64,000 nt of DNA from Alphaproteobacteria bacterium (GTDB taxonomy: Bacteria; Pseudomonadota; Alphaproteobacteria; UBA6615), in NCBI GenBank assembly GCA_021774575.1, contig JAJFIX010000023.1:68166-132165 (forward strand), given 5' to 3'. The first letter of the stretch is position 1. Every line of letters begins with the position of its first letter. Below the pieces are notes generated by a model. The model had not been told where the DNA came from. It did not search any database and worked only from the letters and a program-made list of their open reading frames with translations. This document shows, one piece after another, positions 1 to 14,922 of the stretch. Position numbers and translations under genes: made by a program.

Positions 1-66
1 GATTTCCCGGGTTTTTTGTTTTCGGGGGGACGTCTTTACAGCCTGGCGCGTATCACCGAAATTTGA
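1..66 (+). CDS. C-terminal tail of an upstream gene (partial)
   Basis: The first frame is open from the window edge to a TGA at 64-66 and reads as 21 residues ending SLARITEI. The tail looks like ordinary coding sequence and lies upstream of the rhamnose genes on the same strand, so it is probably the end of the preceding polysaccharide gene. Nothing about its function can be read from so short a piece. The other two forward frames are also open here, so the call is weak. Confidence 0.3.
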   Translation, partial: DFPGFLFSGGRLYSLARITEI

Positions 67-137
67 GTGGTTGGTGTGGTTGGCTGATTTATGTAGGCTT
101 TCACCTGGTGTTTTGTACTTGCAAGGAGGGGGCGATC

Positions 138-716
138 TTGGAAACAATTTCAACAGATATTGCCGATGTTAAAATATTACGGCCACGTATATTCGAAGAC
201 GAGCGTGGATTTTTTTGCGAAACCTATAATTCTCGTACATTGGCTGCAATCGGCATTGACCTCACTTTTGTCCAGGATAATCATTCCATGTCTGTGGCGA
301 CGGGGACGATTCGCGGTCTTCATTTTCAATCTCCGCCCCATGCCCAGCATAAAATTGTGCGCGTCGTTAGCGGTAAAATACTGGATGTTGCTGTGGATAT
401 CCGGCATGGCTCGCCCAGCTATGGTCGCTATACCAGTGCCATATTGGATCCGACAAGCGGCCAGTTTTCGGTGCCTGTCGGCTTTGCCCACGGGTTCATT
501 ACCTTGGCGCCGAATACCGAAGTCGTCTATAAAACGTCGGATTTTTATGCGCCCGAGTGCGATATGGGTATCGTTTGGAACGATCCGGATATAGCTATTG
601 ACTGGCTGAGTGGCGAGACCATTGATAGTGACAAAAGCGTTACACTTTCGGCTAAGGACCAAAAACTGCCAAAATTTAGTGACATAGAACCGGTGTTTTG
701 GTATCACACATCTTGA
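138..716 (+). CDS. rfbC: dTDP-4-dehydrorhamnose 3,5-epimerase
   Basis: Third enzyme of dTDP-L-rhamnose synthesis; it epimerises dTDP-4-keto-6-deoxyglucose at C3 and C5 in the cytoplasm. The 192-residue protein has the RmlC cupin pattern: DERGFFCETY near residues 21-30, RGLHFQ at 59-64 with the catalytic-type histidine at 62, and VPVGFAHGF further on. I place the start at TTG 138 because a strong Shine-Dalgarno sequence (aaggaggggg, 123-132) sits just upstream and the usual RmlC N terminus begins there. An in-frame TTG at 63 would add 25 residues with no family resemblance. It is the first of four rhamnose genes (C-B-D-A order). Confidence 0.95.
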   Translation: METISTDIADVKILRPRIFEDERGFFCETYNSRTLAAIGIDLTFVQDNHSMSVATGTIRGLHFQSPPHAQHKIVRVVSGKILDVAVDIRHGSPSYGRYTSAILDPTSGQFSVPVGFAHGFITLAPNTEVVYKTSDFYAPECDMGIVWNDPDIAIDWLSGETIDSDKSVTLSAKDQKLPKFSDIEPVFWYHTS

Positions 717-804
717 AGCGGTGTGGCTTTCGAGTAATTCGACTTGGCGGGGAGGGGCTCGCTGCTGTTGATTGTATTTTTAGTAATTATTGAGTTCGTA
801 AATT

Positions 805-1872
805 ATGCGCGTAATTGTAACTGGGGGAGCGGGCTTTATTGGCTCGGCGGTGGTGCGGAGATTGCTTCGTGCCGATCACGAGGTTCTGAATTTCGACCTC
901 ATGACCTATGCCGCCAGCATGGCGACGCTCCGTGACATCGGACATCATCCAAAATATCGATTTGTTCGCGGTGATGTCACCGATACGGCGGCCTTTAATT
1001 ATGTTTTGGCGTCGTTTAGGCCCGATGCGATCATGCATTTGGCCGCCGAATCTCATGTTGATCGTTCAATCGAAAATCCCGAACAGTTTGTCGATACGAA
1101 TGTAATCGGTACCGTTCGATTGCTTGCCGCATGTACGCGGTATTGGGAACGGCTGCCGGCGGCCGACCAACAGACTTTCCGTTTTCACCAGATTTCGACA
1201 GATGAAGTTTTTGGTGAGCTCGGTCCGACGGGGCAGTTCAGCGAACAGAGCCCCTACCAACCCAACTCTCCTTATGCGGCGAGCAAAGCGGCTGCGGATC
1301 ATTTTGTCCGCGCTTGGGGGCGGACCTATGGCCTGCCTGTTGTGTTGAGCAATTGTTCCAATAATTACGGACCGTACCAATTCCCCGAAAAGCTCCTGCC
1401 TTTGATGATCATCAAGGGGTTGGCTGGGGAGCCATTACCGGTTTATGGGGACGGGCAACAGGTGCGCGATTGGCTCTATGTCGATGACCATGCCGATGCC
1501 TTGAAACTCGTTCTTGAGCAGGGCGTGATTGGTGAAAGCTACAATGTCGGCGGTGATTGCGAACGAACAAATTTGTCCATCGTACATGCCATTTGCGATT
1601 TGCTAGACGAGCTTCAACCAAAATCGCGCGGGTCCCACCGTGACCTGATTACCTATGTCACCGATCGACCCGGGCACGATCGCAGATATGCCGTTGATTT
1701 CTCGAAAATTCACCGTGAACTGGGGTGGTCGCCGAGAGAGACATTTGACTCCGGGATCGAAAAAACCGTGCGTTGGTACGTCAACTTTCGTTCCTGGTGG
1801 GAGCCGATTTTGAGCGGCGACTATGCCGGTGACCGGCTGGGTGAACGGTTGATGGCTGCCGGTGATGACTGA
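805..1872 (+). CDS. rfbB: dTDP-glucose 4,6-dehydratase
   Basis: Second enzyme of dTDP-L-rhamnose synthesis, converting dTDP-glucose to dTDP-4-keto-6-deoxyglucose with bound NAD. The 355-residue protein is an extended short-chain dehydrogenase: the Rossmann glycine motif GGAGFIG is at residues 7-13, the dehydratase signature STDEVFG at 131-137, and the YxxxK pair is Y157 and K161. The length is normal for the family. Its stop overlaps the start of rfbD, which indicates translational coupling. The 88-bp gap from rfbC has no clear promoter, so one transcript is likely. Confidence 0.97.
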   Translation: MRVIVTGGAGFIGSAVVRRLLRADHEVLNFDLMTYAASMATLRDIGHHPKYRFVRGDVTDTAAFNYVLASFRPDAIMHLAAESHVDRSIENPEQFVDTNVIGTVRLLAACTRYWERLPAADQQTFRFHQISTDEVFGELGPTGQFSEQSPYQPNSPYAASKAAADHFVRAWGRTYGLPVVLSNCSNNYGPYQFPEKLLPLMIIKGLAGEPLPVYGDGQQVRDWLYVDDHADALKLVLEQGVIGESYNVGGDCERTNLSIVHAICDLLDELQPKSRGSHRDLITYVTDRPGHDRRYAVDFSKIHRELGWSPRETFDSGIEKTVRWYVNFRSWWEPILSGDYAGDRLGERLMAAGDD

Positions 1873-2803
1873 TCCGAAAACCCATGTTCTGATCGCCGGG
1901 GCAAATGGTCAATTAGGGTTAGAGTTGCAGCGGCAGTCTTGGCCCAGTTCGGTGCAGATCCATGCCTGCGACCGGCAAGCGCTGGATATTACAGATGGCG
2001 GCAGCGTCGCGCGATTTATTGAACAGGGTCGGTTTGGCTGGGTGATAAATGCCGCCGCATACACAAATGTGGATGCGGCCGAAGATGACCAGGAGGCCGC
2101 TTTTGCCGTAAATGAATTGGGCGCCCAGAATTTAGCCAGGGCGTGTCAAGTTTCTGGGGCAGCGCTGATCCATATTTCGACCGATTATGTTTTCGATGGG
2201 TCCCAGCAAACTCCGTACGCAGAAGAAGATGCCGTAAATCCCATGGGGGTTTACGGGGCAAGTAAACTGGCGGGCGAGGTGGCGATCCGCGACGCTCTGC
2301 AATCACATATCATTCTTCGCACTGCCTGGTTGGTGAGTGCTCACGGTAAGAATTTCGTTAGGACCATGATCCGTCTGGCTGGCGAGCGTGACGAGTTGCG
2401 GGTGGTTGCCGACCAAACCGGGTCCCCAACAGCGGCGGGTGATTTGGCCGCAGCGATTGTAAATATCATCACTTCACTCATGGTGGATGGAGATCCTCGG
2501 TTCGGTCCGATTTGGGGCACCTATCATTGTTCGAATAGCGGTGCCGCCAGCTGGTGCGACCTCGCCGGCCACATTGTCAAAACATTAGAATTTAATGCCA
2601 AAGCAAAACCGATCGTGACGCCGGTCACGACGAGCGAATATCCGACCCCGGCCAGGAGGCCGCAAAATTCGCGCCTAAATTGCAGTAAAATTGGTCGCAC
2701 TTTTGGAGTGAATATGAGGCCTTGGCGGGTGGCCGTTACCGAAATTATTCGGGAACAGGCGATAATCGGGCATGGCACAGGGTCTGTAGGAGCCGCGGCA
2801 TGA
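1865..2803 (+). CDS. rfbD: dTDP-4-dehydrorhamnose reductase
   Basis: Final step of dTDP-L-rhamnose synthesis, the NAD(P)H-dependent reduction of dTDP-4-keto-rhamnose. The protein shows GANGQLG at residues 12-18, STDYVFDG at 105-112, and the catalytic YxxxK as Y130 and K134. The ATG at 1865 lies inside the end of rfbB (8-bp overlap); a GTG at 1862 would add a single residue and cannot be excluded. The gene ends in an ATGA overlap with rfbA, so the three are read as a coupled series. At 312 residues it is slightly longer than many family members because of a short C-terminal extension. Confidence 0.96.
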
Positions 2804-3705
2804 AAGGTATAATTCTTGCAGGGGGCACAGGAAGCCGCCTGCATCCGATCACCTATAGTGTCTGTAAGCAATTGCTGCCGGTCTACGACAAACCGATGAT
2901 TTATTACCCGCTGTCGATTTTGATGCTGGCCGGAATTAGGGATGTCCTAGTCATTACCACCCCCGAGGACCAAACACTGTTTCGCAATCTTTTGGGCGAT
3001 GGCAGCAAGTGGGGGATTGCCATTAGCTACGCGGCCCAGCCGGAACCGGGGGGATTGGCCCAGGCCTTCACCATTGGCCGCGACTTTATAGATGGCCAAG
3101 CTTGCGCCCTTGTTCTGGGTGACAATATCTTTTTTGGCCATGGTCTTGGGGCGCAACTAAAACAAGCTGTCGCAAATACAAAAGGCGCGACCGTGTTTGC
3201 CTATGGCGTCCACGACCCGGAGAGATACGGTGTTGTGGAATTTGACGATGCGGGGCGGGCCGTTAGCCTGGAGGAAAAACCGGACAACCCACGGTCACGG
3301 TGGGCGGTAACGGGGCTCTATTTTTACGACAAAAATGTTGTCGATTATGCCGCCGCGCTCAAGCCGTCACCGCGCGGCGAACTGGAAATCACCGACCTAA
3401 ATCGGGTTTATCTGGAGCGCGGCGAATTGGATGTCGAATGTTTGGGGCGCGGCTATGCCTGGTTCGATACCGGGACCTTCGATTCCCTGGCTGAGGCGAC
3501 CGAATTTGTTCGTGTGTTGGAACACCGCCAAAGGCAAAAAATTGCATGTGTCGAAGAAATTGCCTGGCAGGAGGGATTCATTACTGCCGGGCAGCTGCTC
3601 GAACTTGCCAAGCCGCTGGAGAAAAGTGGGTTTGGCGCCTATCTCACGGATTTGGTTCGCCAAGATGAGCTTGGGAATTCTCATGACGCAGTCAGACAGG
3701 GGTAA
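2800..3705 (+). CDS. rfbA: Glucose-1-phosphate thymidylyltransferase
   Basis: First enzyme of the dTDP-rhamnose pathway; it makes dTDP-glucose from glucose-1-phosphate and dTTP. The N terminus carries the nucleotidyltransferase signature GGTGSRLHP at residues 8-16, followed by [17 protein letters not shown] at 23-39. [13 protein letters not shown] and [11 protein letters not shown] are further family landmarks. I chose ATG 2800, which overlaps the rfbD stop as ATGA and gives 301 residues, the usual length. An upstream in-frame start inside rfbD would add a nonhomologous stretch. It completes the rml set, so the organism can make L-rhamnose for the polysaccharide encoded here. Confidence 0.96.
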
Positions 3706-3710
3706 GGCCG

Positions 3711-6700
3711 ATGACCCTCATTTTACACCGCGTAGAGGGATGGGAATTCGAAGAAATTGAGGACCCATTTCTAGCCCATTCAAATAATAATGATCGCGCC
3801 GAAGGCGATGGTCGTGTTCGCCCGTCTGCGCCGGGGCGCCTCGCAACGCCGGAACTCACCACATTATTGGGGGCGCGAACGAAAACCAAACGACGGGGCG
3901 GACCGCACCCCGACGCAAAAGATAGAACGGCCTTGCTGGTTCTCGGCGGTCATCGGTCGGGCACTAGCGCCCTTACGCGGATGTTGAGCATTGCAGGCGC
4001 GCGACTGCCGGCCACGCTGATGGGGGCGGCTGACAGTAATGAGAAAGGGCACTGGGAGTCCGAATCTCTCGTGGCATGTCACGATGCTCTGCTTACACAA
4101 TTGTCAAGTTCATGGGACGATTGGCAGGAACTTGATTTGAACCGCGTGTCGCTTAAAGACCGGCAAGCGGCAAAAACCGAGATCGCAACACAGGTGGATC
4201 GAGAATATAGCGATGCCGCTCTTTTTGCAGTCAAGGATCCGCGTATCTGCAGGTTCGTGCCATTTTTTAGGGACGCTCTGTCTGAGTTGAATTGCAATAT
4301 TAGGGTTGCGTTGCCTTTCCGCAATCCACTGGAGGTCATTGCGTCCCTGAGGGCGCGAAATGGCATGGGCCGCACCGACGCAGCGCTCTTATGGTTACGC
4401 CATGTGCTGGAGGCCGAACTTGGGTCTCGCGATTTACCGCGGGTCGTTCTTTCCTATGACGCCCTACTGAATGATTGGCAAACAATATATGAGCGCTTGG
4501 AGGCGGAGGCCGGGGTAAACTGGCCTTTCGCGGCGAACGAAATATCCGACCAGATCACCAAGTTTCTTGACCCGACCAGCCGCCATCATGCGCGTACCAC
4601 GGAAGAGGTATTGCTGGATCCGAAATTATCCAACTGGGTTGCTGAGGTTTATCAGGCAATGTTGGTGCTAGAGCAAAGCCCAAACTCAAACGCAGCCTGC
4701 GCCAAACTGGATGATATTCATCGTGAATTTAACCAAGCCTCACCTGTTCTTCGTCAGATGCGTGACGACGTTTATTCTTCTTGGGCGAAAGAGAGTGAAA
4801 AGCAAAAGGCTGAACTCAAGGAACAAGGAACTAAAGCAGGACAGCTCGAGGCGAATATTGACCAAAAAGAGTCGGAACTAAGTGATCTTGCGGCCGATTT
4901 GGCGTCGTCTGAGACCAGGGCAAATGAACTTGCTAAAAAGCTACAGCAAAAACATATCGAATTAAATGATCTGTCTTCCGTCAAGACAAAGATTGAGGTT
5001 CGGGCCGAGCAGCGCGGCGCATTTCTTGCGCAAAAGAACAAGGAACTCGATGCCCTTCGCACCGCCCAATTGACGGCAAAATCGGAGATAGAACGGCTTC
5101 ATTCGAGCCTTGCAGAAAAGCAAAAACTGGTCGAGGACGGTCGTATCGCCCAATTGCAGGTTGAGGAAGGTAGCGGTCAAATTGCTGCTAGCCTCGCGGC
5201 CAAGGAAGTAGAATATGAGCGGTCGATTTCAGCCAACGGCAAAATCGGTCAGCGCATAAGTTGGCTGCGGGCTCAAGTAAAGCGTGGAAATACGGATCTT
5301 TCGGTGATCAACGAGGCGCTGAATTTATCGAAGAGAGATAGCCGGAACAACTTGGCCCGGTTTGAGCAGAAGGTGACTGAGCATTCCCAATTAAGGGCGC
5401 AGTTTCTACGATTGAAAGCGGACGGCATAAACCTCTCGGCGAGATTGGAAAAAAGTGATTCAAAACTGACGATTACGAGCCAAGAGCTTGATATTTCAAG
5501 GGGCAAAGCGCGAAAACTAGAGCGGGCAGAAATTGAACGAGGCACCGCATTATCGGCAATCAATTCGGCAAATGAGCGGATCGAACAACTAAATTCAATT
5601 TTGCATGAAAAGGACTCAACGTTAGCTGAGTTATATTTGGAAAATTCGGATGTACGCACGCGTGCGGAGGCGTTTTCTGCTGAAATTTCAGCCAAACATT
5701 TGGAATTTGAACGGCTGCAGGAATTGCATAGCCGAGCGGAAGACGACCGCCAACGTTACAAAACAGGCTTGAAGGAAAGCGCTGCGGAAATTGCTCATTT
5801 AACCGATACCGTTGTTGGGCGTAGTAATAAGTTAGCCGATGCACTCCAATCTCGCGAGATTGTCCGAAATGAGGCAGAGCAGTTGCAACGGGACCTGTCT
5901 CGGTATGAGAAGCTTCTCCAGTGGCATGAAACAGGCCGGTCCGAATTCAAGGGCTATATCTATGAGCAAATCGAAAAAGACATACATTTATCGAAAAAAA
6001 TATATATTGATAATTTACATTACATAAAATTACAGAAAATGTTTCCTTGGACTAGACGCGCATATTACTTGATTGAAGAGAAGATTATACTGGCCTCCGG
6101 GTTGTTTGATGCGCTGTACTATGAATCAACATATGGAAACAGCTACTCGGGTCAACTCTCCGCTGTCAGTCATTTCGTCCGCCATGGTTCGAAGAATAAG
6201 TGTAATCCGAATAGCATGTTTGACACGGATTTCTACGTTCAAACCAACTTGGATGGTGAAGAAACGGCTCTAAATCCACTCATACACTATATTGTGTCAG
6301 GCGCTGAAAGTGGGTTGAAGCCACATCCCTATTTTCCCGATAACTACAAGAATAATACACTCGATGTTTCGAAAATAAATCCGCTTCGACATTACCTAGC
6401 CTATAATCGTGGCGATTCTAATCCCAATACAGATCTCCCGGACGGTGACGTAAATACCAGATGGCTGGCTCGCGTAGGGGACGTAAATTATTCGGCACTT
6501 CGATCAATATTTGAACATTTTGGGCTGCGCGGCCGCATCGATTGGAAGGCTCCGGGCGATATTGAGGCGCATCGGGCACCTGAATATGTGCAATTCATCA
6601 ATACGCTGGCGGATAATTATTCGGCCCCGACAGGTAATTGCGACGTTTCAATAGTGATCGCGACTTATAAGGAGTTGCGTTATAGCCTTGCTTGCATTGC

Positions 6701-8549
6701 CTCCCTCCTAGTTTCCCCGACGCGGTATTCTTTTGAAATAATCGTGGCAGACGACGGGTCGCCAGATGGATCGGCTGATATTTTATCGCAAATCGATGGA
6801 GTCAGGCTGCTGGCCGACAAGGAAAATGTCGGATTTTTACGCAACTGCAATCGTGCGGCCGATACAGCAATTGGCAAATATATTGTCATGCTGAATAACG
6901 ACACGATGGTTTTACCGGGTTGGCTGGACGAACTAATTGGCACCCTTGAACGCGATGAGCAAGTTGGGCTTGTTGGATCGAAATTATTATTTCCAGACGG
7001 GAAACTGCAGGAGGCGGGTGGGATCATTTGGCAGGATGGAAGCGGTTGGAACTTTGGGCGGCTCGGAAATGCGGGTGCGCCTGAGTTCAATTACGCCCGC
7101 GATGTCGATTATTGCTCGGGCGCGTCAATCGCCCTTCGTCGCTTGGATTGGATTGAGTTGGGCGGATTTGACGAGCATTTCGCTCCGGCCTATTACGAGG
7201 ATACTGACCTGGCATTTCGTGTTCGGGGGGCTGGGAAAAGGGTGCTTTACCAACCTTTGTCCGAAATCATTCATTTTGAGGGAATTAGTTCCGGCACCGA
7301 TTTATCGAGCGGCGTCAAACGCTTTCAAGTTGAAAACAAAGTGAAATTCATTGAAAGCTGGTTTTCCGCCCTCGAGTCCCATGGCAGTTCAGAGGCGCCC
7401 CCCGGTTTGTTTTTCAATCGCCCGGTGAAAGGTAAGGCACTTCTGATCGACGAGCGTACGCCAGAACCGGATATGGATTCAGGGTCGGTCGACACCTTCA
7501 ATACACTAAAGATCTTTAAAAATTTGGGGTACGAAACGGTATTTATCCCTAGGAATATGGCCCATGTCGGTCGCTACACAACGGATCTACAGCGTTTGGG
7601 TGTGAAGACCGTCTATGCTCCGTCCCATAACGGATCCATTATTGATGCCGCGATTGCTGAGGCCGCGGACGCAGACGTCATCCTTATTTACCGCGTTACT
7701 ATGGCGTCTGATCTTCTTGACCTGATCAAGGAGGCAGCCCCTGAGACGGCGGTTATTGTCTTTAATACTGTTGATTTGCACTTTTTGCGCGAGAAAAGAG
7801 CCGCAAAAATTAGTAAGTCGACGGTGGGACGGCGCAAAGCGATGAAAACCCGCACGGCGGAACTTGCTGCAATGCGGAAAAGCGATGCGACGATTTTGCT
7901 GAGTGAGCACGAGGTGGAGGTGATCCAGGACATCGATCCGAAAATCAACACCTATCGTATTCCCATTATGCGCGATGTACCGGGCCGGGGTGATACAAAT
8001 TTTGAGCAACGGTCCGACGTCGTTTTTCTCGGCGGTTTCGAGCATACCCCGAATGGAGATGCCGTTGAGTATTTCGCGCGCGAAGTCTGGCCACTGGTTG
8101 CCGCAAGAAAAAGTGGCGCCAAGTTCATAATTGCCGGCAGCAAAATGCCACAAGAAATCAAGGATTTGGCGAGTGAGGATATTGTCATTCGCGGTTTTGT
8201 GGAAGACCTGCCCGAATTGTTTAATTCGTGCCGTATGACCGTCGCGCCACTGCGTTTCGGCGCTGGCCTTAAAGGAAAGGTCATTTCGAGTTTAAGCCAC
8301 GGCGTCCCCGTTGTCGCGACCCCCATCGCGGCAGAAGGTTCGGGCCTGAAACACGGAACACATTTGTTGATAGGAGATTCCGCCGAAGAGATGGCCCAAG
8401 CTATTGACCGTTGTTATTCCGACCCAGACCTCTGGAACCATTTGTCTGTGCACGGGCTGCAGTTTTGCGAGGAGAATTTTTCAATCAATACAGTGACCCG
8501 CTTACTGGGTGACCTCATAGCGGGGACCAAGAAACAGACCCGCCCGTGA
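3711..8549 (+). CDS. Multidomain sulfotransferase / coiled-coil / GT2 / GT4 glycosyltransferase
   Basis: A 1612-residue fusion, probably acting at the inner face of the membrane on a surface glycan. Residues about 75-330 form a sulfotransferase-like P-loop domain (GGHRSGTSAL, 79-88, is the expected PAPS-phosphate loop). Residues about 353-735 are a long charged coiled coil rich in Glu, Lys and Leu. Residues about 790-930 hold short FDxxFY / NPLxHY repeats of a kind seen beside glycosyltransferases. A family 2 glycosyltransferase follows (about 970-1215; VADDGSPDGS and a NND metal-site motif at 1062-1064). A GT4-type glycosyltransferase ends the protein (about 1240-1612; GGFEHTPNGDAVEYF). It starts five bases after rfbA and continues that operon. 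Substrates cannot be read from sequence; rhamnosyl transfer is an inference from the neighbours. Confidence 0.88.
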   Translation: MTLILHRVEGWEFEEIEDPFLAHSNNNDRAEGDGRVRPSAPGRLATPELTTLLGARTKTKRRGGPHPDAKDRTALLVLGGHRSGTSALTRMLSIAGARLPATLMGAADSNEKGHWESESLVACHDALLTQLSSSWDDWQELDLNRVSLKDRQAAKTEIATQVDREYSDAALFAVKDPRICRFVPFFRDALSELNCNIRVALPFRNPLEVIASLRARNGMGRTDAALLWLRHVLEAELGSRDLPRVVLSYDALLNDWQTIYERLEAEAGVNWPFAANEISDQITKFLDPTSRHHARTTEEVLLDPKLSNWVAEVYQAMLVLEQSPNSNAACAKLDDIHREFNQASPVLRQMRDDVYSSWAKESEKQKAELKEQGTKAGQLEANIDQKESELSDLAADLASSETRANELAKKLQQKHIELNDLSSVKTKIEVRAEQRGAFLAQKNKELDALRTAQLTAKSEIERLHSSLAEKQKLVEDGRIAQLQVEEGSGQIAASLAAKEVEYERSISANGKIGQRISWLRAQVKRGNTDLSVINEALNLSKRDSRNNLARFEQKVTEHSQLRAQFLRLKADGINLSARLEKSDSKLTITSQELDISRGKARKLERAEIERGTALSAINSANERIEQLNSILHEKDSTLAELYLENSDVRTRAEAFSAEISAKHLEFERLQELHSRAEDDRQRYKTGLKESAAEIAHLTDTVVGRSNKLADALQSREIVRNEAEQLQRDLSRYEKLLQWHETGRSEFKGYIYEQIEKDIHLSKKIYIDNLHYIKLQKMFPWTRRAYYLIEEKIILASGLFDALYYESTYGNSYSGQLSAVSHFVRHGSKNKCNPNSMFDTDFYVQTNLDGEETALNPLIHYIVSGAESGLKPHPYFPDNYKNNTLDVSKINPLRHYLAYNRGDSNPNTDLPDGDVNTRWLARVGDVNYSALRSIFEHFGLRGRIDWKAPGDIEAHRAPEYVQFINTLADNYSAPTGNCDVSIVIATYKELRYSLACIASLLVSPTRYSFEIIVADDGSPDGSADILSQIDGVRLLADKENVGFLRNCNRAADTAIGKYIVMLNNDTMVLPGWLDELIGTLERDEQVGLVGSKLLFPDGKLQEAGGIIWQDGSGWNFGRLGNAGAPEFNYARDVDYCSGASIALRRLDWIELGGFDEHFAPAYYEDTDLAFRVRGAGKRVLYQPLSEIIHFEGISSGTDLSSGVKRFQVENKVKFIESWFSALESHGSSEAPPGLFFNRPVKGKALLIDERTPEPDMDSGSVDTFNTLKIFKNLGYETVFIPRNMAHVGRYTTDLQRLGVKTVYAPSHNGSIIDAAIAEAADADVILIYRVTMASDLLDLIKEAAPETAVIVFNTVDLHFLREKRAAKISKSTVGRRKAMKTRTAELAAMRKSDATILLSEHEVEVIQDIDPKINTYRIPIMRDVPGRGDTNFEQRSDVVFLGGFEHTPNGDAVEYFAREVWPLVAARKSGAKFIIAGSKMPQEIKDLASEDIVIRGFVEDLPELFNSCRMTVAPLRFGAGLKGKVISSLSHGVPVVATPIAAEGSGLKHGTHLLIGDSAEEMAQAIDRCYSDPDLWNHLSVHGLQFCEENFSINTVTRLLGDLIAGTKKQTRP

Positions 8550-8692: not shown

Positions 8693-9685
8693 TTGATTAG
8701 TACAGACAATGATCACATTGAGGCGGAAAAAGCTCAATTTTCCAAAGAAACGAAATGGCAAGAATTACCGAAAATCCATGGGTATTGGAGTAACCGATAT
8801 CTTGCACCAAAGATGAAGGAGGTGTACGGGGGATTAGGAATGCCGTATTTTTTTTCTAAGGGCCTTGTTTATGGTCGTTCCAAGAAAGAAAAAATTCGAA
8901 TATTAAGTATTGGAAGTGGCCTCTGTAAAGTTGAACAAAAAATTGGTGTTCTATTAAACGAACTTGGTTTTACAGATGTTCATATCGAATGTTTAGAGAT
9001 GTCGCCCGAGCGTTGCGAAGCAGCGAGAAATCGTTTTTTAAGGGACGGCGTGTCGGATATTATTTCAGTTACCGAGGTAAGTATCAACGATTGGAATCCT
9101 TGTAAGCATTATACTTCGGTTATGGCGAACCACTCTCTACACCACTTCACCAACCTAGAAGATATTTTTCAAATTATAGTCGAAATCATGGATGATAACG
9201 GTCAATTTGTGGTTAATGATATGATTGGAAGGAATGGTCACCAGCGGTGGAGCGAAGTTCTTGAATATTTAACTGCTATTTGGAGGATTATTCCAAGAAA
9301 ATATAAGTTGGACCGGCATGAGGGTAAGTATTACGACGTATATGAAAACATTGATTACTCTATTCGTACGAACGAAGGAATCCGAGCTCAAGATATTTTG
9401 CCACTCTTGAATAGATCATTTAAGGCCACCCGATTTGTGGCCGAAGGTGGTCTGATTGACATTTTCGTCGACCGTAAATTTGGACATAATTTTGATATCA
9501 ATACCCAGGAAGACAAAGCTCTGATAGATCAAATTGCATTCATGAATACAACTTTGATTGAGGCAGGAATTATAAAACCCACAATGATGTTAGCATGGTT
9601 TAGAAAGTCAAATGTGTTCGTTGAATCAGCTAAAATACACGGGAACTGGTCACAAGAATTTTGTACTCGGGATCCTCGTGTGTAA
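8693..9685 (+). CDS. SAM-dependent class I methyltransferase
   Basis: A 330-residue protein with a class I methyltransferase core: ILSIGSGLCKVEQKIG is motif I near residue 70, ECLEMSPERCEAAR gives the acidic strand-2 end, and ANHSLHHFTNLEDIF is the usual post-motif II region. The start is TTG 8693, supported by GGAG at 8681-8684 and by the absence of another in-frame start for about 40 residues. Base composition is clearly more AT-rich than the rfb genes, suggesting separate origin. It probably methylates a sugar or lipid-linked glycan of the adjacent pathway, but nothing in the sequence names the acceptor. Confidence 0.82.
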   Translation: MISTDNDHIEAEKAQFSKETKWQELPKIHGYWSNRYLAPKMKEVYGGLGMPYFFSKGLVYGRSKKEKIRILSIGSGLCKVEQKIGVLLNELGFTDVHIECLEMSPERCEAARNRFLRDGVSDIISVTEVSINDWNPCKHYTSVMANHSLHHFTNLEDIFQIIVEIMDDNGQFVVNDMIGRNGHQRWSEVLEYLTAIWRIIPRKYKLDRHEGKYYDVYENIDYSIRTNEGIRAQDILPLLNRSFKATRFVAEGGLIDIFVDRKFGHNFDINTQEDKALIDQIAFMNTTLIEAGIIKPTMMLAWFRKSNVFVESAKIHGNWSQEFCTRDPRV

Positions 9686-9728: not shown

Positions 9729-9863
9729 GTGGGCGTACTCCTGGACGATGGCCTGTCCCTCGCTGCGGAAGATACGGAAAAACTGTCTGTCAGGTACGAA
9801 TTGATCAGCAAAAAATTTCTGATCAATTTTGCCAACCGATGTGGGTCAATTAGGGCATTCTAG
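9729..9863 (+). CDS. Possible small protein of 44 residues
   Basis: A short reading frame begins at GTG 9729, six bases after a GGAG sequence (9719-9722), and ends at TAG 9861-9863, overlapping the stop of the convergent sulfotransferase gene. The predicted product reads like real protein (GVLLDDGLSLAAEDTEKLSV near its start) with acidic and then basic segments. I do not recognise it. It could also be a relic of a decayed gene, and its last third lies in a 10-bp stem-loop, which argues for caution. Confidence 0.28.
   Translation: MGVLLDDGLSLAAEDTEKLSVRYELISKKFLINFANRCGSIRAF
9799..9828. terminator. Stem-loop between convergent genes
   Basis: AATTGATCAG (9799-9808) pairs perfectly with CTGATCAATT (9819-9828) around a 10-nt A/T loop, and TT follows on the plus strand. 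It lies between the rightward methyltransferase and the leftward sulfotransferase, where a bidirectional terminator would be expected. The U-run is short. Confidence 0.5.
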
Positions 9864-10918
9864 TCGATCCGTGGCGATTGCGATGTCCTACAGATTTTTT
9901 GATATGTAGATTCCATGAAGTCTTCAACACTTGGTTTTAAAAACCAATATCGGGATGCGGCAACGACTGTTTTTTCTCGCCTTTCGGTTTTAAATAGCGA
10001 TCGTCCTACTCCTTTATTAAATATTCTCCCACCGAATGTAGACACGATTTCATCTTCAAACACCATTAACTGTTTTTCATTTTCTCGAATCCTAATTATG
10101 TTAGCGTATCGTTCGAATTCGCTGACATACATTTCAAAATTTTCATGATCTTGGTAGAGCGCCTTATTCAATAAATATTCCGTGCCTAGTTTTCCACCTG
10201 GCGATTTTTCTTCTCGCTCCTTATACAGCTGGTTCAAGATACGAATTATCTCAATTGTATGGGATTCAACGGAACGATTAATAAGGGCGCCACCGCCTTC
10301 TAATCCGCCAAGTGGCAAATTTAATATATTCTGCCAAAAATATACAAATAGATCTTGGTCGTCATCGATGACGTTATCATAAATATGTGCATATATATTA
10401 TTAATGCCAAATATTCCCGATAGTTCACGCAGTTGTTTTGCTGTCTCCAAACGGATTACGTCTTCTCGCTCCATCCAGCCATGCATCCAAGCCATATATT
10501 CCAGAAACGTATAATCAGCGCCATGTTTTATATTCTCTTGCCAGTAAGATGGCCACAATCCGGCTAAGTCCCTTATAAAGAAGACAATTTCCAATTTATG
10601 CGTCGGAAAAAAGTTTGCAATTCGATTTAGCCCAATTTCATTAAGAGTAACAAAATTTTCGCTCGAAATTATAATGTTTTGGTCCAGCGGAATATTTTCT
10701 CGCAATATTTCAAGAGGAAAATTTATATCGTCATTTCCCTGGTTACTGAAGTATCTAACAATACGATGATGTCCAAACTGTGAAATGCCGAATTCTGGAT
10801 AGTGGAATCCCATTTTTTTCAATAATGGACGCGCATCGATCAAGCGTTTTTGAATATATGTGGTGCCAGTTTTATGAGGTCCGACATGAATTATTAGCCG
10901 TCGTTCGGCTTGGTTCAT
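9860..10918 (-). CDS. Sulfotransferase family protein
   Basis: A 352-residue cytoplasmic protein with an N-terminal 5'-phosphosulfate-binding loop, GPHKTGTT (residues 13-20), preceded by a hydrophobic strand (LIIHV). A second landmark is IIISSENFVTLNE, where a 3'-phosphate-binding serine would fall. This is the pattern of PAPS-dependent carbohydrate sulfotransferases. It lies in the AT-rich block of the polysaccharide region, convergent with the methyltransferase at 8693. With the sulfotransferase-like domain of the 1612-residue protein, it suggests a sulfated surface glycan. The acceptor is unknown. Confidence 0.8.
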   Translation of the reverse strand: MNQAERRLIIHVGPHKTGTTYIQKRLIDARPLLKKMGFHYPEFGISQFGHHRIVRYFSNQGNDDINFPLEILRENIPLDQNIIISSENFVTLNEIGLNRIANFFPTHKLEIVFFIRDLAGLWPSYWQENIKHGADYTFLEYMAWMHGWMEREDVIRLETAKQLRELSGIFGINNIYAHIYDNVIDDDQDLFVYFWQNILNLPLGGLEGGGALINRSVESHTIEIIRILNQLYKEREEKSPGGKLGTEYLLNKALYQDHENFEMYVSEFERYANIIRIRENEKQLMVFEDEIVSTFGGRIFNKGVGRSLFKTERREKTVVAASRYWFLKPSVEDFMESTYQKICRTSQSPRID

Positions 10919-12048: not shown

Positions 12049-14922
12049 CTACTTCGTTATCTTTTCATTCCAATCGGGAATGAATTTTGGTTCAGCGTGG
12101 CCGAAATTGTTTCCTTCAGAAGGAACTTTCACTGAAGGTGCCGGGATTGTTTTACTGAGCGAAGGCGACATTGGCTGGCTTATATGCGCGGCTGTTGTCT
12201 TCGAGATAAGATCGGCTACAGTTGTCGAAATTTGTTCTGCCCTGCGTCCGAATGTATGGTGTTCCCTTACAATAGCTACGACTGCATTGGAAATCCGGGA
12301 ACGCCCCTCCGGATCACCCAAATATTTTTCCACAACTGCCGACAGTGTCTCCGCATCCCGGTATGTCGGCACCAGGTCGCCAAAAACTTCACTCAGTCCA
12401 TCGACCTCGTCGGAAATCACAAATCCGCCGGCTGCGGCGACATCGAAAATTCGGTTCGATATGAAACCGTTTTCGGCCATCGTGTCCCAATGGTCGTTTA
12501 GGACGATCTTGGCGCTGCGATAATGAGCCCAGAGGTCTTCATTTGGAATGTAGGCGCCTCCAATAAATTCGGCATCGATAAAATCGCTCCAATCGCGCCC
12601 GAAAACGGTGAGCGGAATATTTTGGTCGACGGCCCACCGCACGGATTTGCGGTATTCCTGTCTGGTATTGCCGACAAAGAGGACTTCGCTTTTGACACCC
12701 GCTTCGGCATCCATGTCACGGCCAAACCGGGAAATGTCGGCGCACTGCAAAAGGCATTCTACTGGTGTTTGGATTTTTTTCTTCAGGGTTTGCGTATATT
12801 TACGTGAGGCGCAGAAAATATGATCGTATTTGTCATATTGTTCGAGGCGCACTTTTTCGGGGTGGCTGATCAGCCACATGATATTAATTTGGCCGTCCTG
12901 GGGCTCATATTCGCCCAGCCCCTGGAGCACGATTGCGGCGTCGTCGGCGAGGCTTTCCGGGCGATACCATTCGGCTCGGACATCGATACGGACTGAATGG
13001 CCTTGTTTCCGCAGGGCTTGCGATAGGCCTTGGGCAAAATGAAAATCGCCCCAGCCGTGTGCGCCACGTCGGGTTGGGGCTGGAACTTTGATCGAAATCC
13101 GAAATTTCGATTTGGCGAAATCGGTCAGGATGGCGCGAAAATGTTGGGCTCGATGGTCGTATGAATGCCGGTTTTGCACGATGGCTTGAAGGCGGGAGAC
13201 AAGCCCATCACGGGCTCGATCATTGTTGGAATAGAATTCAATGAGGTCTTTAAGTTTGTCTTCGGTCTCATATGTCGGCAGTAATCCGTCGAAGGCAGCC
13301 ACGTCGATATGCTTGTTGTTTGTTATGACCAGACAGCCCGAGGCTATTGCGTCAAAAACCGCTTCATTGATGCATCCCCAGGGTTTTGTTGGGTGATCTG
13401 CGTCATCAATCAGTATTTTCGACGACCGGTAAAGTGCCGGTAGATCTTCATAGGGCTTGTGCCCTTGCCAGATTTCCGGCGTTGGCTGGTGTTTTTCCCA
13501 GTTAATGCCGAAAATCGCGCCCTTTGCGTTAATTGATTGGGGGTGAAGCAAACGAACCACCTCCCGGGTCCGACCTTTATAATCTCCGACGAAAACATAG
13601 TCGAAGGGTCTGGTGTTCGCGCGAACCTTGGGGGCGAGTGACATAGGGGCGAGGCGTGTTGCATTGAGCAACAGGGAGCATGGCACGCCTACCTTGCGCA
13701 CAAATTGCGCCGCGTTTTCTGACGCGCACAGGTAAAGATCAAAATCGGAGAAACCCGCTCGTCGATGCCATTTGTCGACACGGTCACGCACCCATGCCGC
13801 GACCAACGAGCCGGGCTTGCGGCTCTCAATTTTGCGAGGGTCAAACCGATCGAGGGTTGCGACGGTTATGTCGGCGTCCGATTGATCATACCATTTATCG
13901 GCAGGTAAAAAATTAATCGTCCAACCGAATTGGGCGCTCAAGGATCGTCCCAGTTCGCGCGCCGCATTATAATCATCTGCATAATCACCTGCGAAACCAT
14001 CCGACGCCGGGTTTTCAGATATGTCGCTGACCGCAAAGTTGACGGTCATTCGCCGCCCGACCCAAATAGGATCGCAGGCGACGAGGCCGAGTTGATAATC
14101 GCGTTTGATTGCACTGCCGAACCGGCGCCATAAATGCTTCTTATTATTTTTGCGCGTGACGTCGCTATATGCCCGGGTCACCTTGCTTCGTGTCGACCCT
14201 TCCGCGTGAAGGCAAATGAGGTCGTTTCGGCAGATTACCTTTTTTTTTAACTGTTGGCGATATTTCAGGCACAGATCGACATCTTCGTACCCGTAAATAT
14301 AAGATTGGCAAAACCCACCAACTTCCATGAATTCCTTGCGGCGGACGAACATGGCCGCCGCAGTCACCGCAGGCAATTCGACGGTTGTCTCGACGATCCG
14401 ATGATCAATATCCTCATCAACAAAATTTGCCGGGCGGATCATTTTATGGGCCAAATCGAAGCTGGCAAAACGTGTGCCGATATGTTGGATGCGGTTAACA
14501 TTGCGACTTACATCGTCCAGGCGGACGCCAACAATGCCGACTTTTGGATCATCAAGCGTTGCCACGCACGGGCCGATGATATCACTCTCAATAATAATAT
14601 CGTCATTGAGAAAAAGGACGATTTCACCCTTGGAAATTTCAACGGCCCGATTGTTCGACCAGGAAAAACTGCAATTATCTTTAAGTCGAATGAGGTTGAT
14701 TGAAAATGTAGGGCTCCAACGCTGAACAACCCCTTCGACCGAAATAGCCGAATTGTGATCAATGACGATGATTTCAATCGTCTTGTAGCTATTAACCTTG
14801 GCAATGCTGGCAAATAATTGGTCCAAGTTTGTCGCGCCATCGCGAGTCAAAATGATAATGGTTACCAGCGGTGGTGATAGCGCGGACGATGCAGATGGCA
14901 GCGGCTGGTCGGTGATGGGCAT
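12049..14922 (-). CDS. Three-module glycosyltransferase (GT2 plus two CgeB-like modules)
   Basis: A 957-residue cytoplasmic protein. Residues about 15-270 are a family 2 glycosyltransferase: VTIIILTRDG opens it, FLNDDIII is the metal-site region and YGYEDVDLCLKYRQ is the acceptor-side motif. Two related glycosyltransferase-4-like halves of the CgeB/DUF3880 sort follow. Both have an HYRSAK or LYRSSK helix, a segment like GCLVITN or GGFVISD, and a closing arginine/histidine-rich helix (QNRHSYDHRAQHF, REHHTFGRRAEQI). The duplication is seen by eye; polymerising or bifunctional activity is inference. The ribosome site (AAAGG) lies in the end of a small upstream frame. Confidence 0.87.
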   Translation of the reverse strand: MPITDQPLPSASSALSPPLVTIIILTRDGATNLDQLFASIAKVNSYKTIEIIVIDHNSAISVEGVVQRWSPTFSINLIRLKDNCSFSWSNNRAVEISKGEIVLFLNDDIIIESDIIGPCVATLDDPKVGIVGVRLDDVSRNVNRIQHIGTRFASFDLAHKMIRPANFVDEDIDHRIVETTVELPAVTAAAMFVRRKEFMEVGGFCQSYIYGYEDVDLCLKYRQQLKKKVICRNDLICLHAEGSTRSKVTRAYSDVTRKNNKKHLWRRFGSAIKRDYQLGLVACDPIWVGRRMTVNFAVSDISENPASDGFAGDYADDYNAARELGRSLSAQFGWTINFLPADKWYDQSDADITVATLDRFDPRKIESRKPGSLVAAWVRDRVDKWHRRAGFSDFDLYLCASENAAQFVRKVGVPCSLLLNATRLAPMSLAPKVRANTRPFDYVFVGDYKGRTREVVRLLHPQSINAKGAIFGINWEKHQPTPEIWQGHKPYEDLPALYRSSKILIDDADHPTKPWGCINEAVFDAIASGCLVITNNKHIDVAAFDGLLPTYETEDKLKDLIEFYSNNDRARDGLVSRLQAIVQNRHSYDHRAQHFRAILTDFAKSKFRISIKVPAPTRRGAHGWGDFHFAQGLSQALRKQGHSVRIDVRAEWYRPESLADDAAIVLQGLGEYEPQDGQINIMWLISHPEKVRLEQYDKYDHIFCASRKYTQTLKKKIQTPVECLLQCADISRFGRDMDAEAGVKSEVLFVGNTRQEYRKSVRWAVDQNIPLTVFGRDWSDFIDAEFIGGAYIPNEDLWAHYRSAKIVLNDHWDTMAENGFISNRIFDVAAAGGFVISDEVDGLSEVFGDLVPTYRDAETLSAVVEKYLGDPEGRSRISNAVVAIVREHHTFGRRAEQISTTVADLISKTTAAHISQPMSPSLSKTIPAPSVKVPSEGNNFGHAEPKFIPDWNEKITK

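Follow-up and report, generated by a model that had tools for sequence, protein, structure and literature searches.

What would a protein do that carries a sulfotransferase-like domain at one end, two glycosyltransferase domains at the other and a long coil-like stretch between them? This question is raised by a single open frame of 1612 codons, devoid of internal stops, that directly follows a rhamnose operon in the window, i.e., the whole 64,000-nucleotide stretch of an alphaproteobacterial genome analysed here (Table 1). We consider the chances about even that this protein works like WbbB of Klebsiella O12, whose chain contains rhamnose, with a sulfate group as the cap; it would then be a glycan polymerase and terminator in one chain.

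The identity of the N-terminal domain was examined at several levels. Pfam Sulfotransfer_3 matched the whole protein below cut-off (18.5 bits), and the isolated domain with 21.9 bits (E 2.3e-4) against a gathering score of 27. Since such a match is suggestive at most, the domain was aligned with 71 relatives. In the resulting 72 rows, 58 of which match Sulfotransfer_3 at E ≤0.01, the G, H, R, G, T and S of the 3'-phosphoadenosine 5'-phosphosulfate (PAPS) loop GGHRSGTS (residues 79-86) are invariant, as are Glu 116 (in GHWES), Arg 204 and Ser 212. Going by the sulfotransferase family, we presume that the loop contacts the 5'-phosphosulfate and the Arg and Ser the 3'-phosphate, and that the Glu has its usual role. 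The AlphaFold2 model of residues 72-336 reached a predicted local distance difference test score (pLDDT) of 95 and a predicted template modelling score (pTM) of 0.92. With this model, Foldseek ranked a tyrosylprotein sulfotransferase first (1.6e-4), 6-phosphofructo-2-kinases (PFKFB) following from rank 9, and the top match of VIA-align was likewise a tyrosylprotein sulfotransferase (Z 15.8 over 215 residues, root-mean-square deviation 4.0). Among the 50 VIA-align matches listed, rows 1-37 are sulfotransferases (Z 15.8 to 9.6), a count in which Teg12, Teg14 and StaL are taken by us to be sulfotransferases, and row 38 is an adenylate kinase (Z 9.6). Identity to the nearest solved structures is about 14%, and a profile search of solved sequences returned five weak matches, four of them named sulfotransferase (best E 0.094). 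Judged by the model, residues 72-336 have the PAPS-sulfotransferase fold, sharing both fold and PAPS loop with Sulfotransfer_3 and the tyrosylprotein sulfotransferases. PAPS can be made in this organism, since an adenylyl-sulfate (APS) kinase family gene is present on contig C31 (235.6 bits). To our knowledge, the nearest solved tyrosylprotein-type sulfotransferases are not fused to coils and glycosyltransferases.

That the domain is instead non-catalytic, serving in binding or regulation, or that it acts on a protein or lipid acceptor, appears to us to have a slim chance. The nearest structures are indeed tyrosylprotein sulfotransferases and the Pfam score lies under cut-off, but the acceptor cannot be read from a common fold, and the invariance of the loop residues, Glu 116, Arg 204 and Ser 212 across all 72 rows argues against an inactive domain.

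Residues from about 337 to 760 (~420) look like a coiled coil, called here from a composition rule and from periodicity against shuffled sequences. Proline is absent across residues 346-760, and the hydrophobic 3.5-residue periodicity at 345-745 peaks at 19.3, against a maximum of 9.8 among 300 shuffles. As one continuous helix, this coil would by computation span about 63 nm.

Between the coil and the GT2 domain lies a fifth module composed of three FD..YY repeats, which start at residues 799, 837 and 875, the third reading FP..Y. Pfam did not match them in the window protein. The model of this region is predicted helical (pLDDT 74 overall, most model residues 31-140 above 80); a structure search found no PDB fold match, which says little given that some regions of the model are weak. 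The repeat consensus reads FD..YY...PDV..G..PL.HY...G..EGR.P, and up to about a dozen copies occur per protein (L054, L082 and L109 are among the carriers); FD..YY matches were also seen in frames of 2148-2152 codons in G001, G009 and G014, which belong to the family of the source genome. The two C-terminal modules were matched by Pfam as Glycos_transf_2 (residues 980-1097, 7.8e-23) and Glyco_trans_1_4 (residues 1436-1571, 2.1e-23), and together they would, in our reading, act as a polymerase.

The gene maps once to the source genome (C16:71876-76714, 100% identity). Its ATG lies 5 bp downstream of the end of the rmlA frame, with an AAGG a short way 5' of it. Upstream on this strand stand rmlC, rmlB, rmlD and rmlA, all of which score above the cut-off of an NCBIfam model. 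Because this operon is directly upstream, rhamnose is a likely building block of the glycan. These results largely sustain the initial annotation of the locus. The P-loop sulfotransferase-like domain is borne out by the model, the structure matches and the invariant loop, residues 75-330 falling inside the fold (pLDDT 95, Z 15.8), and the presence of GT2 and GT4 in one 1612-residue chain right after the rhamnose genes by Pfam, by the frame and by the 5 bp gap. The coil also stands, although it is about 420 rather than 380 residues long. A four-part order given as the complete layout missed the FD..YY module, and the Pfam architecture search that had been proposed is clear for GT2 and GT4, whereas Sulfotransfer_3 stays below cut-off and the repeats go unmatched.

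The architecture was then compared with that of relatives, namely the best 80 of at least 565 sulfotransferase-domain loci in named genome contigs, which are not a random sample and nine of which have frames running off their contig. By the composition rule, a coil-like stretch of at least 100 residues follows the sulfotransferase in 61 of the 80, and 55 of these 61 beat all 100 shuffles in periodicity; the coil starts within 60 residues of the sulfotransferase end in 56 relatives, 50 of which beat the shuffles. FDYY repeats occur in 28/80, and GT2 or GT4 domains in at least 22/80, a lower bound because the GT4 domains that Pfam finds in L105 and L116 escaped our own profile. The full order sulfotransferase-coil-FDYY-GT2-GT4 recurs in two metagenome-assembled genomes (MAGs), as L110 from a Hyphomonadaceae (1576 aa) and as L075 from a Thiocapsa (432-5645), the latter with an additional WbsX domain (PF14307). 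L101 (7977-12650) combines sulfotransferase, coil, GT2, GT4 and WbsX (PF14307) without FDYY. Sulfotransferase-coil-FDYY proteins without glycosyltransferases are encoded by Sphingobium (L039, L040), Rhodobacteraceae M382 (L038), Desulfolutivibrio (L041) and Allorhizobium (L044), and a sulfotransferase-coil-GT2-GT2 protein by Paracoccus albus (L037). A second Allorhizobium locus, L043, shows the order methyltransferase-coil-FDYY-GT2-GT4 (domains by Pfam); since a methyltransferase there occupies the place of the sulfotransferase, the distal enzyme seems exchangeable. ABAZ39_RS32250 of Azospirillum argentinense (L042) has FDYY-GT2-GT4 directly after rfbC-rfbB-rfbD-rfbA and is 35% identical to the window protein over residues 798-1591; unlike it, this protein lacks a sulfotransferase match, and no coil precedes its repeats. 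Parts of the fusion recur in other orders on plasmid records, and none of the 414 plasmid records with a match has a place covering 80% of the protein.

As the same order and its variants recur in relatives, we regard the gene, from these sequence comparisons, as one of a shuffling set of modules and not as a chance join. The domain combination highlighted at first is thus truly joined in one chain but not singular. A misassembled join of two genes, named at first as an outcome that would refute the observation, is not indicated and is unlikely because relatives in other assemblies keep the same domain order. We give such an artefact practically no weight: nothing beyond the draft state of the assembly (46 contigs) was found in its support, whereas L110 and L075 have the same order, and L101, L105 and L116 close variants of it, in other assemblies. 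The tree of the 72 sulfotransferase domains has little resolution, with stars on 15 of its 69 inner branches. Glycosyltransferase fusion takes 16 label changes on it, the shuffles averaging 18.4 with 60 of 500 as low, and starred branches force only three; since the tree is weakly resolved and the label changes are near those of shuffles, nothing is claimed on the number of fusions. Among the neighbours of these relatives, L110 is preceded by rml-type genes, as judged by eye, and followed by a further Sulfotransfer_3 gene. The L043 gene lies 2-5 kb from cysN and cysD, on the same plasmid that carries L044, and an adenylyl-sulfate kinase gene is found about 1.4 kb from the Desulfolutivibrio L041 gene; such neighbours might fit sulfation loci.

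What this layout may do is suggested by studied proteins of the same plan. WbbB, from Raoultella terrigena and Klebsiella O12, has an N-terminal terminator, a coiled coil and two polymerising glycosyltransferase modules near the C-terminus of one chain (PMC11231755, PMC9587256). ORF6 of Klebsiella pneumoniae O7 similarly joins an N-terminal methyltransferase-kinase, a coil and two C-terminal glycosyltransferases using dTDP-rhamnose, the second of which is a GT2 with an NXD motif like the NND of the window GT2 (PMC11231755). In these O-antigen systems the coil invariably carries the terminator at its far end, and for Wzm/Wzt export the cap is read by the binding domain of Wzt (PMC11231755). WbdD of E. 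coli O9a also places a cap enzyme distally on a coil that measures chain length, and altering this coil alters chain length (PMC5082667). The window protein likewise has glycosyltransferase modules at one end of its coil and, by fold and order, a terminator-type domain at the distal end, whose role as terminator we propose by analogy. There are clear differences. WbbB adds 3-deoxy-D-manno-oct-2-ulosonic acid (Kdo), its modules are GT99, GT102 and GT103 and it is partnered with an ATP-binding cassette (ABC) exporter, whereas the window protein has a sulfotransferase, GT2 and GT4 domains and FDYY repeats in a genome without Wzt_C. ORF6 carries two GT2 modules, makes a methyltransferase-kinase cap and relies on ABC transporter export. 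WbdD makes a kinase-methyltransferase cap, with the polymerase WbdA as a separate protein, and is rather comparable to the glycosyltransferase-less proteins L039, L040 and L044.

Since WbbB, ORF6 of O7 and WbdD work in this way (PMC11231755, PMC5082667), the coil of the window protein is, by analogy, more plausibly a spacer or ruler that separates the polymerase from an enzyme acting on the chain end than a neutral scaffold. The earlier idea of a single machine that builds and sulfates a rhamnose glycan fits the domains and the rml operon; its view of the coil as scaffold does not hold as well. In the mechanism that we propose, the C-terminal GT2 and GT4 would build a rhamnose-containing glycan on the cytoplasmic face of the membrane, and the coil would place the sulfotransferase at the other end of the protein, as far as about 60 nm from them. 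Only chains long enough to reach the sulfotransferase would be sulfated, at their growing end, and this sulfation would halt chain growth. In relatives beside wzm-wzt, the sulfated end would serve as the tag that the carbohydrate-binding domain of Wzt reads for export. Polymerising activity, sulfation of the chain end, the acceptor, linkage and order of that sulfation, ruler action, the identity of the sugar and the export route of the window copy are all presumptive parts of this proposal.

A family that makes caps for Wzt would be expected to travel with the Wzt_C domain. Within 385 genomes of the class, the sulfotransferase family was found in 30 and Wzt_C in 41. Wzt_C is present in 17 of 22 clear carriers (at least 130 bits, a cut set after inspection of the list) versus 24 of 363 others (Fisher p 1.6e-14), and in 17 of all 30 carriers versus 24 of 355 others (p 4.5e-11). 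With families counted once, the figures are 12/17 versus 16/157 (p 1.1e-7), assuming 174 families, a total derived from genome labels; these statistics ignore genome size, as well as kinship beyond this family-level count. The flippase PF01943, used as control, shows no such link (14/22 versus 26/36, p 0.56), the control set being 36 hand-picked genomes, some with Wzt_C. The sulfotransferase and Wzt_C matches are at most 4.1 kb apart in 7 of the 17 genomes and less than 100 bp apart on one strand in three (G074, G119 and G382), while in the other ten they are at least 20 kb apart or on different contigs. Around position 140824 of G119:C31, a sulfotransferase match falls in an open frame of 25156 codons that may be a run of N.

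The named loci point in the same direction. A Wzt-like ABC protein (E ≤1e-20) occurs in the flanks of 23 of the 80, and Pfam found Wzt_C in eight of the ten scanned for it (of the 23, the eight with the highest scores plus two that scored lower). The Wzt_C protein is encoded directly upstream on the same strand in L098, L105, L116 and L060. In L105 (Rhodanobacter sp. C06) and L116 (Oleiagrimonas soli), an ABC2 permease and a Wzt with Wzt_C are followed by sulfotransferase-coil-GT4-GT2; the genes of L105 overlap by 4 bp, and rmlB- and rmlA-like genes lie near. Wza-like genes are near five of the 80 loci, and Wzc-like and Bac_transf-like genes near one each. By eye, a second sulfotransferase-like stretch apparently lies between Wzt and the sulfotransferase-coil-glycosyltransferase gene in L135 (G247).

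Several observations weigh against a WbbB-like action of the window copy. No Wzt_C was found in the source genome (97% complete, draft of 46 contigs), which is one of five clear carriers out of 22 without this domain, and no Wzm is evident among its four ABC2_membrane proteins (neighbours judged by eye), none of which lies beside sugar genes in the short stretches inspected; a polysaccharide ABC exporter, searched for via Wzt_C and ABC2_membrane, was accordingly not found in this genome. The nearest export genes, Wza-, Wzc- and Wzy-like together with a Bac_transf initiator, form the set of another assembly route. The window coil is about three times as long as the 20 nm given for WbdD (PMC5082667). 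The coils of L105 and L116 pass the composition rule and fail the periodicity test (1.8 and 4.0), a Wzt-like ABC protein is absent from the L110 flank, and the one ABC protein next to L075 lacks Wzt_C by Pfam. Wzm/Wzt export with a cap-reading Wzt_C is found in relatives and not here, and because it is a defining feature of the WbbB group, we propose, at about even odds, that the protein works like WbbB with a sulfate cap and do not call it a member.

The export genes bring in the main rival explanation, which we hold possible but rather unlikely. In a Wzy-type assembly, Bac_transf would start a lipid-linked unit, GT2 and GT4 would add sugars including rhamnose, the tethered sulfotransferase would sulfate each short unit, and Wzy, Wzc and Wza would polymerise and export the product, the coil being a scaffold or oligomer stalk. 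Genes for this route lie on the same contig at C16:53807-65561, about 6-18 kb upstream of the gene, and comprise Wzy_C, GNVR/AAA_31 (Wzc-like), BBP2, Bac_transf (the phosphoglycosyl transferase) and Poly_export, and the ABC exporter needed otherwise was not found. However, searches of the source genome with PF01943 and PF13440, which left aside other flippase types, turned up no Wzx, and the one MurJ match there is taken as MurJ rather than Wzx. Furthermore, a coil of ~60 nm would make little sense for a unit of a few sugars unless bent, and the family as a whole tracks Wzt_C and not PF01943. Another explanation, to which we assign little probability, sees a relic or a cluster in flux, with a gene that arrived by transfer out of a Wzt-type locus and has since lost the exporter, such that export of the product no longer takes place or the sulfotransferase uses another acceptor. 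The patchy distribution of the family (30/385 class genomes, and 4/95 in another set that includes the source genome) would agree with this, as would an apparent transposase fragment seen by eye upstream on the contig, but 1612 open codons, kept signature residues and tight coupling to rmlA speak against it.

Beyond the window protein, we propose tentatively, and with slightly less than even confidence, that sulfation is a widespread and undescribed way of terminating and proofreading bacterial surface glycans, in which a coil-borne sulfotransferase caps the chain and Wzt reads the sulfate; the window gene would be a fully fused form moved to Wzt_C-free export. The caps named in PMC11231755 are methyl, methylphosphate and Kdo, with pyruvate in a different role, and the main text of that paper contains no words beginning with "sulfotransferase" or "sulfat". 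Among the matches listed in full-text searches, which leave out most subscription papers, no title or abstract opening concerns a coil-borne sulfotransferase terminator, nor is one described in the available parts of PMC4483657, PMC12445080, PMC13390465, PMC13171606 and PMC9723792. For Aeromonas salmonicida, a sulfotransferase-domain protein of 216 aa is given between wzt and wbbB (PMC4483657), a further hint. In E. coli group 3 capsules, putative methyltransferases have coiled coils that vary in length (PMC13171606), a sign that coil-borne terminators extend beyond O-antigens. KfiB of the E. coli K5 capsule, likened here by description only, is described as a putative sulfotransferase belonging to a transporter-dependent capsule (PMC13171606). 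LpsS of Sinorhizobium meliloti is also a bacterial sulfotransferase modifying lipopolysaccharide; unlike the window domain, it is named as Stf0 family, and the available text mentions no coil or glycosyltransferase modules (PMC12445080). If the proposal is true, a sulfate cap would put a charged group at the cell surface, and it would be explained why many of the at least 565 sulfotransferase loci carry coils and glycosyltransferases. Wzt binding domains encoded beside such genes should then bind sulfated sugar ends, and the compact wzm-wzt-[sulfotransferase-coil-GT4-GT2] arrangement of the Rhodanobacter and Oleiagrimonas isolates makes the idea testable.

Table 1. The fusion gene, its modules and neighbouring genes (positions in the window).
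Feature	Position	Strand	Length, basis or remark
Whole gene, sulfotransferase-coil-FDYY-GT2-GT4	3711..8549	+	1612 aa
N-terminal stretch, residues 1-71, without match	3711..3923	+	Pfam and own profiles
Sulfotransferase domain, residues 72-336	3924..4718	+	Alignment, AlphaFold2 model, structure comparison
Probable coiled coil, residues about 337-760	4719..5990	+	Periodicity, composition
Three FD..YY helical repeats, residues about 798-906	6102..6428	+	38-residue spacing, third diverged
GT2 domain, residues 979-1190	6645..7280	+	Pfam; NND at 1062, ED at 1163
GT4-type domain, residues 1283-1599	7557..8507	+	Pfam
rmlC, dTDP-4-dehydrorhamnose 3,5-epimerase	3..716	+	NCBIfam; frame open at window edge
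rmlB, dTDP-glucose 4,6-dehydratase	805..1872	+	NCBIfam
rmlD, dTDP-4-dehydrorhamnose reductase	1862..2803	+	NCBIfam
rmlA, glucose-1-phosphate thymidylyltransferase	2722..3705	+	NCBIfam; family match from frame residue 28
S-adenosylmethionine (SAM) methyltransferase-like	8693..9685	+	Weak Pfam matches, below cut-off
Second multi-domain glycosyltransferase nearby, GT2 and Glyco_trans_1_2	12049..14922	-	957 aa; Pfam

Two other frames were noted around the locus. A 352-aa protein encoded at 9860-10918 on the minus strand is sulfotransferase-like by motif only, with a P-loop GPHKTGTTYIQ near its start; it had no Pfam or NCBIfam match, and its PDB sequence match is at chance level only. About 33 kb upstream of the window, an open frame of 3443 aa extends over C16:24625-34956.

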